From assembly GCF_000993805.1 (NCBI RefSeq), contig NZ_CP009961.1, positions 396,001 to 460,000 of the forward strand: DNA of 64,000 bases. The letters are read 5' to 3'. The DNA is from Thermofilum uzonense. Lineage in GTDB: Archaea; Thermoproteota; Thermoprotei; Thermofilales; Thermofilaceae. The notes beneath the pieces are model-generated. The model saw nothing but the letters and a program-made list of their open reading frames with translations, had not been told where the DNA came from and made no database searches. Below are positions 3,230-35,957 of this stretch, in pieces. The position numbers and the translations under genes were made by a program. How positions within the stretch are numbered: the stretch's first letter is position 1; every line of letters begins with the position of its first letter.

Positions 3230-3799
3230 GTGGCTGATGAAGCACTACAAACTCTCCTCAGAACCTCAATACTGGTAATGCTTGCAGAGCTGGGCGATAA
3301 GACGATGATAGCGACAGCTACCCTGGCCTTATCCAATAATCCACTCCACGTGTTGATCGTCTCAATTCTTGGCTACCTTACAGCGAACGCTGCACCAGTC
3401 GTAGTCGCGTGTAGTGTTTACTATTTCCTTGAGGAGGCGAGACTACTCCTAAAACTCCTCTCAGGCTTATTTTTCTTTTTGATTGGGCTCCACATGTATA
3501 GATCTAAAAACCATAAGCTGGAATCTAAAGGCAAAGGATTAACTTTCACCACAGTTTTCCTATCGGAAATCGGCGACAAAACACAACTGGCTACAATTGC
3601 TTCCGCTGCTGGGGCTGAAAACCCCATCCTTCCCCTTCTCGGGGGTGTTATAGGCTACATGGCTGCAAACATCTTAGGCGTGATAGCCCTCAGGCAACTG
3701 GCCAGGAAGTTAAACCTTACAACTCTTCACAAGATTTCAGGAATAGTCTTTATGTTCATTGGGCTTTTAACAGTTTTCCTACTGATGCTTAGCCTTTGA
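3230..3799 (+). CDS. Gdt1/UPF0016-family cation exporter
   Basis: A polytopic membrane protein of the Gdt1/TMEM165 (UPF0016) family, which exports Mn2+ or Ca2+ in exchange for protons. Both halves carry the diagnostic E-x-G-D-K-T motif: ELGDKT at residues 20-25 and EIGDKT at about 113-118, in two three-helix repeats. I chose the in-frame GTG at 3230 over the ATG at 3134. It places the first motif at the usual distance from the N-terminus and lies about 30 bp after an AT-rich TATA candidate near 3190-3199. The longer form would add an extra hydrophobic segment. The 3' end overlaps egsA, which is convergent. Confidence 0.82.
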   Translation: MADEALQTLLRTSILVMLAELGDKTMIATATLALSNNPLHVLIVSILGYLTANAAPVVVACSVYYFLEEARLLLKLLSGLFFFLIGLHMYRSKNHKLESKGKGLTFTTVFLSEIGDKTQLATIASAAGAENPILPLLGGVIGYMAANILGVIALRQLARKLNLTTLHKISGIVFMFIGLLTVFLLMLSL

Positions 3800-4828
3800 G
3801 ACCGTTCTTAGAACTATCTCCCTTAGCTCCTTATCCTCAAGGGAGAGTTTGTGTAATATAGTATATCTATCTCTTAGCCTCGGAGCTAATAATAGAGCTG
3901 TTACGGCCTCGTCAAGCGTCATGTGAAGGTCCTCGATGCTTGTAGGAGCTCCTACCGCGTTCAAGGCCTGTTTAATTCGAATCCAGTCCATTCCATGCAG
4001 GTATGCAGCTATTATGGTGCCAACACCTACTTGCTCTCCGTGCAAGGCGCGTCCAGGGTAAAGCTTGTCAATCGCGTGGCTGAAGAGATGCTCTGAACCA
4101 CTACATGGCCTACTGCTTCCCGCGATTGACATGGACATCCCTGCAAGAAGCCCAGCCTCTGCTAGCAATGTCATGCTCTTCTTGGAGAAGGACACGATAC
4201 TCTCAATGTTTTCGAGGACGATATGGGCAGCCGCTTCCGCCATCCTTAAAGCCGACTCAGGGACGTGTTCCCCAACCTCTCGCGCTGCCAACCTGGCGTC
4301 TGCGACGCTTGTAATCTTCCCAAGCAGGTCTCCAACACCACTCGCTAAGAGTCTCCTCGGAGCCTGCGAAATAACGTCTAGATCTACTATAACAGATATA
4401 GGGGGAGCCGTGAAAAGCGACAATGGGTTGCCGTTCTCATCCTTCAGCGCGACTATAGGGCTTGCAAACCCGTCGTGGCTGATAGAGGTCGGGATACTTA
4501 TAAAAGGCTTCTCGAGCTTAAAGGCAAGATACTTGCCTACATCTACAGGTCTCCCCCCTCCCATCCCAGCCACACAGTCAAAGTCTAGAGTGGACAGCTC
4601 CACATGCATCTTGTCAAGCGTTGGCCGGTCGTTGGTCGAGACATTAATAAAGATAGGCTTGATGTTCATTCTCAACAGGATTTGCTCAATTCTAACGCCA
4701 TACAGCATCCTCACATTGACGTCGCTCACAATCAAGAGTGAGTCACACCCATACTCCTTAAGGACCTGGGGAACGTCGTCAAGAGCTTCCTCGCGAATTA
4801 TCACATGTCGGGGTGTCTTGAAGTTCAA
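3779..4828 (-). CDS. egsA: sn-Glycerol-1-phosphate dehydrogenase
   Basis: This enzyme reduces dihydroxyacetone phosphate to sn-glycerol-1-phosphate, the backbone of archaeal ether lipids. The 349-residue length matches the family. The glycine-rich nucleotide site GMGGGRPVDVGK is at 88-99 and the family signature TSISHDGFASP at 114-124. Zinc ligands fit Asp167, His247 (or His251) and His263. The start is TTG with an AGGAG-like site about 10 nt upstream and an AT-rich box about 30 bp upstream. Its presence is the clearest single marker that the window is archaeal. Confidence 0.95.
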   Translation of the reverse strand: MNFKTPRHVIIREEALDDVPQVLKEYGCDSLLIVSDVNVRMLYGVRIEQILLRMNIKPIFINVSTNDRPTLDKMHVELSTLDFDCVAGMGGGRPVDVGKYLAFKLEKPFISIPTSISHDGFASPIVALKDENGNPLSLFTAPPISVIVDLDVISQAPRRLLASGVGDLLGKITSVADARLAAREVGEHVPESALRMAEAAAHIVLENIESIVSFSKKSMTLLAEAGLLAGMSMSIAGSSRPCSGSEHLFSHAIDKLYPGRALHGEQVGVGTIIAAYLHGMDWIRIKQALNAVGAPTSIEDLHMTLDEAVTALLLAPRLRDRYTILHKLSLEDKELREIVLRTVSKAKHQ

Positions 4829-5172
4829 TCCACAATCTCCTATAGACGCTCGACTTTAGTCTTAAAATCTTTTACTCAAAAAATGGACGAATCCTGGGGT
4901 TATCGCTCAACGCGTTAAAAATAAATATGAGGGGGAAGAAAGGAGGGTTGCTATAATCTAACCCTAACCCCGGGCGAGGTTACCCTCCCTTCCCCCTGCT
5001 ACCTTCATTAAACTTCCCTATTTATTTGCTTCGACTTTTTCCATGTAGATTTTTCAGATCTTTATCCTCTTTTATTAGAATACATTACTAAAATAAACGA
5101 ATCCACTTGAGCGAAATAACTGAAGGATAAATCGTACCATGTACAAAATTAATTTCTAGGGGGCATCTCATC
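4829..5172. other. Intergenic region with promoter and structured repeat
   Basis: A 344-bp gap. The left edge carries the egsA promoter on the minus strand (AT-rich box near 4857-4868). The middle holds the GC-rich stem-loop described at 4931-4996. The remainder, about 5000-5172, is AT-rich with no open frame or recognisable RNA gene. Confidence 0.6.
4931..4996 (+). repeat. Structured GC-rich repeat, copy 1 (candidate ncRNA or MITE-like element)
   Basis: A long hairpin in AT-rich surroundings. Bases 4931-4938 (GGGGGAAG) pair with 4989-4996, and 4942-4948 (GGAGGGT) pair with 4982-4988, with an unpaired AAA on the 5' side. The apical part contains ACCCCGGGCGAGGTT. A second copy at 35751-35820 keeps GGAGGGTTG on the 5' side and CCCCGGG-Y-GAGGTT-R-CCCTCC on the 3' side, while the outer stem has different bases that still pair. 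The strand is arbitrary. It could be a small structured RNA or the footprint of a small mobile element. Confidence 0.55.
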
Positions 5173-35472: not shown

Positions 35473-35797
35473 ATGCGAGACTGTAGGCTGCGTGTCGAGC
35501 ATGAGGAGCAGGAAAGGAGGGCATACCAGGCGATTAGCGAGGAGATCGAGGAGGTACACATGCGCAAGCATAGCCGCTTTCAGGGTATACGTGGAAACCC
35601 TGCCAGACCAAGGGAAAGCACTCTGCGGCATCGAAGCAACGCTTAGCGAGCTTGGAGAACTCTCAACTAGGACTGAAGGTTTTCTTGAGGAATGGGAAGC
35701 GGAAAGGACATACAGTATCTTCCTCCAAGATTATAAAGAGGCGGAAGTAGTGCTGGGGCTGGGAGGGTTGTGCTCTCTAGCCCACTACCCCGGGTGA
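35473..35797 (+). pseudogene. Frameshifted small gene, unknown function
   Basis: The ATG at 35473 opens a helical, acidic frame (MRDCRLRVEHEEQERRAYQ and so on) that closes at 35646. A second frame, open from 35492 to 35797, is Arg-rich nonsense at first but becomes protein-like from about 35565 (GIEATLSELGELSTRTEGFL). The protein-like parts are complementary, so one gene with a frameshift around 35550-35590 fits best. Its last codons lie inside the structured repeat, as if the repeat had been inserted at its 3' end. No family recognised. Confidence 0.4.
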
Positions 35798-35820
35798 GGT
35801 TGCCCTCCTCTCCCCCAGCA
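35751..35820 (+). repeat. Structured GC-rich repeat, copy 2 (candidate ncRNA or MITE-like element)
   Basis: Same element as at 4931-4996. TGCTGGGG at 35751-35758 pairs with CCCCAGCA at 35813-35820, and GGAGGG at 35762-35767 pairs with CCCTCC at 35803-35808. The apical part keeps ACCCCGGGTGAGGTTG. The outer stem differs in sequence from copy 1 but still pairs, which supports RNA structure. It overlaps the 3' end of a frameshifted gene; bases 35821-35957 after it are AT-rich with nothing recognisable. Confidence 0.55.
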
Positions 35821-35957
35821 TGTTTCTATGACGAAATTAGGGGTATTAATTTCCTACTACGTGTATAACGAATTTTGTTCAGCATCATCTCAGCATGATA
35901 TTAAAAATATACAGTTTATCCCCGGAGCTTTATCTTGAAGGCTGTACTTTAAGGTCC

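Follow-up and report, generated by a model that had tools for sequence, protein, structure and literature searches.

Two short hairpins in a 64,000-nucleotide stretch of Thermofilum uzonense DNA (the window) probably belong to a family of small non-coding RNA genes at the level of the genus, each a stand-alone gene with its own promoter and specifying an RNA whose stem would act as a clamp presenting a loop. This reading of the sequence draws on homology, covariation, a conserved motif, a promoter-like element at a fixed distance, and the tRNA-type 3′ flank of one of the two copies.

Occurrence and structure of the hairpins

Both hairpins were found exactly where the initial annotation had placed them, at 4931-4996 (copy 1) and 35751-35820 (copy 2). 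They share GGAGGGTTG and CCCCGGG-Y-GAGGTT-R-CCCTCC, as it had described, and their outer 8-bp stems differ in sequence from copy to copy while pairing fully in each. Folded as the plus strand, both copies surpass dinucleotide shuffles (z of -2.8 and -3.3), with only 3/200 and 1/200 shuffles, respectively, folding as well as the real sequence. The additional inner pairs that had been proposed, TAACC/GGTTA and TAGCC/GGTTG, are unused in the predicted minimum-energy structures. Similarity between copies 1 and 2 ends at the ends of the hairpin.

When 60 relatives were searched with a conserved 17-mer, matches with 0 or 1 mismatches were found in all six congeners, each within a hairpin whose stem differs in sequence yet remains paired. 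The covariance-model search that the initial annotation had proposed was then run with a model built from eight copies (R1), and it yielded further homologues with covarying stems in these six species. R1 finds two copies in T. uzonense (copy 1, 53.1 bits, E 3.5e-10; copy 2, 59.9 bits, E 5.5e-12) and one strong copy in each congener, with scores across the Thermofilum copies of 45 to 62 bits (E 4e-8 to 1e-12); the RNA is thus present in 7/7 genomes of the genus examined. No match at an E value below 0.01 was seen among 20 other genomes of the order and 34 of the class. The best match outside Thermofilum, in another genus, had an E value of 0.0117 and resembles coding sequence. Weak R1 matches in other genera and second matches in the congeners, which look like chance or coding sequence, were set aside. 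A scan for the core across 84,980 prokaryote genomes plus viral contigs gave, beyond two Thermofilum records, matches scattered across unrelated phyla; as the model gave them scores of about 30 bits at most, we attribute them to chance.

Read along the minus strand, the RNA consists of an outer stem P1 (8 to 10 bp), a small asymmetric internal loop, a second stem P2 (4 to 6 bp or longer), and a terminal loop of 31 to 35 nt. In copy 1 (predicted transcript of 66 nt, minus strand of 4931-4996), the P1 5′ arm GGGGGAAG (4989-4996) pairs with the 3′ arm CTTCCCCC (4931-4938), and the P2 5′ arm GGAGGG (4983-4988) pairs with CCCTCC (4942-4947). In copy 2 (70 nt, minus strand of 35751-35820), the corresponding P1 arms are TGCTGGGG (35813-35820) and CCCCAGCA (35751-35758), and P2 is again formed by GGAGGG (35803-35808) and CCCTCC (35762-35767).

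Across the eight copies, 63 of 64 P1 cells are paired, with changes on both sides at seven of eight pairs and with GC, CG, AT, and UA pairs interchanging. Because the P1 arms were picked by eye, the proportion paired is in part a product of that choice, which does not apply to the variety of pair types. P2 contains four covarying pairs, with a covariation score, over a sample of only eight sequences, of 0.35, compared with 0.12 for shuffled alignments and at most 0.09 for slid controls. The terminal loop starts with a near-invariant 16-nt motif, YAACCUCRCCCGGGGU, which is kept in all eight copies (UAACCUCGCCCGGGGU at 4967-4982 in copy 1 and CAACCUCACCCGGGGU at 35787-35802 in copy 2, both on the minus strand) and within which CCCCGGG, as read on the plus strand, is invariant; dimerisation through the CCCGGG it contains, raised in the initial annotation, is at most conceivable. 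The 3′ half of the loop is variable, and the loop is closed by CAA in five copies and by a shorter GCG/GGG form in three. For comparison, the probable sn-glycerol-1-phosphate (G1P) dehydrogenase encoded beside copy 1 is only 55 to 63% identical between T. uzonense and these motif-bearing species.

It is also worth pointing out that the three copies lying away from an ITPase-family locus (both window copies and the one at locus L076 in genome G004) have an identical P2, GGAGGG/CCCTCC. Possibly, these represent a paralogue lineage or a transfer. The T. uzonense G1P dehydrogenase is nearer to those of G001, G005, and G006, despite the P2 held in common with G004.

The transcribed strand

The strand most likely to be transcribed is the minus strand of the window, opposite to the one first described, given the promoter and the 3′ flank of copy 2, both on the minus strand. 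All eight copies carry a TATA-like A+T box on that strand, starting at -28 to -32 relative to P1 and ending about 22 to 24 nt before it, a spacing like that of tRNA genes. In the window these boxes are ATAAATA at 5019-5025 for copy 1 (A+T run from -31) and ATTAATA at 35844-35850 for copy 2 (A+T run from -32). No TATA-like box or promoter occurs at a consistent position on the plus strand of the eight copies. When a promoter motif was derived from 29 tRNA promoters of T. uzonense and applied to the eight copies, its minus-strand peak fell at -36 to -40 in every one, within the range of -44 to -36 that it shows for the tRNAs of this species; its plus-strand positions are scattered. In T. pendens, tRNA promoters lie 30 to 49 nt upstream (PMC3218864). 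Because the eight copies occupy four unrelated genomic sites, the box is not explained by a single inherited flank. Downstream of copy 1, a T-rich stretch, TCATATTTATTTTTAA (4915-4930, minus strand), may serve as a terminator.

Alternatively, the plus strand could be the functional RNA, as a hairpin with a third stem P3 formed by CGGGUGAGGUU and the variable arm and capped by CUACCC; such an RNA might come from the 3′ portion of a converging gene's transcript, acting as a 3′-end stabiliser or terminator. Folding z-scores are lower on the plus than on the minus strand in 8/8 copies, the pairing of the variable with the conserved arm against shuffles gives a combined z of -3.08 on the plus strand and -0.93 on the minus strand, and seven of the eight copies follow a plus-strand gene or open reading frame (ORF). 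Taken by themselves, the fold and arm results mean that the plus strand, or both strands, could be the structured product. The conserved arm is G+U-rich on the plus strand and can readily form additional G-U pairs there, although this does not remove the conflict between folding and promoter. Copy 1 has no converging gene, near-invariance of a 16-nt motif would not be required of a terminator, and a plus-strand product has no consistently placed promoter and leaves the fixed-distance TATA box on the other strand unexplained. Giving more weight to the promoter and the copy 2 3′ flank than to folding, we prefer the minus strand and regard a plus-strand RNA as quite unlikely.

Genomic setting and mobility

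Five of the copies are preceded by an ITPase-family gene (recognised by its sequence rather than by a family search), and the other three lie elsewhere. No relic of the RNA was seen beside the ITPase-family gene in T. uzonense, G004, or other genera. Gene order downstream of the RNA in G001, G005, and G006 differs from that in G002 and G003 (loci L073-L078), and since the upstream ITPase-family gene is common to both groups, the RNA gene marks a rearrangement breakpoint.

The minus-strand gene at 3779-4828, some 100 nt beyond copy 1 in the downstream direction, matches Fe-ADH_2; judging from this similarity, it probably encodes the G1P dehydrogenase of archaeal lipid synthesis. As the RNA does not adjoin that gene in the congeners, there is no sign that it controls it.

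The 3′ flank of copy 2 (35588-35750, minus strand) shares homology, in the same orientation, with the sequences that follow seven tRNA genes on their 3′ side; the alignment scores are 20 to 47, where shuffling gave at most 18. On the plus strand, this flank falls inside the ORF at 35492-35797. This ORF belongs to a dispersed repeat (loci L217-L236) with 28 tblastn matches in T. uzonense and none in the six congeners, whose ORFs are decayed and coiled-coil-like. At least seven tRNA genes have the repeat immediately on their 3′ side, in antisense orientation in every case, and repeat copies L229 and L230 come after apparent degenerate tRNA 3′ ends, which could reflect insertion of an element at the ends of tRNAs or a repeat headed by a tRNA.

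These surroundings bear on the second explanation offered initially, a MITE-like element. The hairpins resemble MITEs and IS200/IS605 terminal hairpins in being imperfect palindromes, and their scatter over unrelated sites, together with the contact of copy 2 with the 28-copy repeat, would fit a non-autonomous mobile element of the MITE, REP, or IS200/IS605 type. Against this, there is one copy per genome (two in T. uzonense), the hairpin ends, which would serve as the terminal inverted repeats, lack sequence conservation, similarity stops at those ends, and beyond the hairpin only the promoter is conserved, an element of its own that sets the RNA apart from MITEs and IS200/IS605 hairpins. The dispersed repeat is also found beside tRNAs where there is no hairpin, and it is absent from copy 1. 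We therefore consider mobility a highly improbable explanation. The structured-RNA reading has instead been strengthened by additional copies, covarying stems, a core conserved genus-wide, and a promoter at a fixed distance.

Role of the loop and relation to known RNAs

Under the structured-RNA reading, each gene would use its own TBP/TFB promoter to produce an RNA of 65 to 76 nt from the window's minus strand; we infer transcription, the transcript ends, and binding at the loop from the features above. P1 and P2 together would make up a long GC clamp, fit for temperatures of about 85 °C, closing the 31- to 35-nt terminal loop with its near-invariant 5′ half. The combination of a near-invariant loop with stems that need only pair points to a clamp holding out a binding site, and the invariant loop would be the working part. 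It would most likely be bound by a protein or a larger RNP, with pairing to another RNA as second choice; we rank them in this order because no conserved target was found among the 30 of 68 exact 10-mer sites examined, and because the loop complement occurs no more often ahead of ORF starts than it does inside genes. A more speculative extension, which we hold only tentatively, is a housekeeping-type RNA-protein particle particular to Thermofilum, in which an always-present RNA from a tRNA-style gene would dock a putative protein on its clamp-held loop.

Pairing with mRNA was considered in the form of a stand-alone antisense RNA, whose loop, through CUCACC and ACCUC, would bind GGGUGAGG-like Shine-Dalgarno sites and block translation. 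UCACC and ACCUC are common to the loop and the 16S tail GGAUCACCUCC, and sequence ahead of ORF starts contains the loop complement more often than it does complements of shuffled loops (p of 0.01 to 0.016). Set against this, the complement is equally common inside genes (22 sites before starts versus 28 inside at k=5; 10 versus 7 at k=6), and of 68 exact GGGTGAGGTT 10-mer sites, the 30 examined included none common to orthologous genes and lay mostly inside ORFs. An antisense role seems unlikely to us. It could also be imagined that the RNA mimics a segment of 16S rRNA (the GGAAACCUCACCCGGGG region) and works as a decoy that binds a ribosomal protein or a modification protein, as GGAAACCUCACCGGGGG in T. 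uzonense 16S matches the core at 15 of 17 letters; with 9/150 shuffled cores matching rRNA at least as well, the resemblance is not significant, and we find this very improbable. Pairing of the core with rRNA, predicted at up to -25.1 kcal/mol in 23S without a shuffle control, is not counted as evidence.

Compared with Rfam 15, the RNA matches no family above its gathering cut-off, and loose thresholds gave sub-threshold matches only, nearly all to microRNA-type hairpins. No title describing it was found among full-text, open-licence PMC papers, though it may have been described earlier in other literature. It is apparently an undescribed family of a known kind of thing, small structured RNA. 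To our knowledge, strong comparative support is rare for stand-alone archaeal RNAs beyond C/D, H/ACA, tRNA, SRP, and RNase P. The RNA is small and present in every genome of the genus examined, and its invariant loop offers an immediate bait for a partner. Relocation of the gene between species, together with the tRNA-like 3′ flank, also makes it useful for following the movement of small-RNA genes within these genomes.

Several known RNAs share some of these features. Archaeal H/ACA guide RNAs also have a long hairpin with an internal unpaired region, but inspection of the eight sequences and their 3′ flanks revealed neither a K-turn or K-loop nor an ANA box after the stem, and there was no Rfam H/ACA match. 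Archaeal box C/D sRNAs are of the same size class and come from stand-alone genes in Thermoproteota; unlike them, the RNA has no RUGAUGA or CUGA boxes by inspection and a long stem rather than a short terminal one. The permuted and split tRNA genes of T. pendens (PMC3218864) are likewise unusual small-RNA genes of this genus with GC-rich stems, but the RNA contains no tRNA halves, and the published permuted sites, 539254 and 892743 (PMC3218864), are far from position 1483765, where the RNA copy of G004 (probably the T. pendens genome) lies. Finally, although the RNA lacks a T arm and an anticodon arm, and although neither window hairpin was called by ARAGORN and the window gave no RF00005 match, it resembles the tRNA genes of Thermofilum in size class, in promoter spacing, in the 3′ flanking repeat of copy 2, and in its GC-rich closing stem, which in several congeners reads GGGGCCG, as in some tRNAs.
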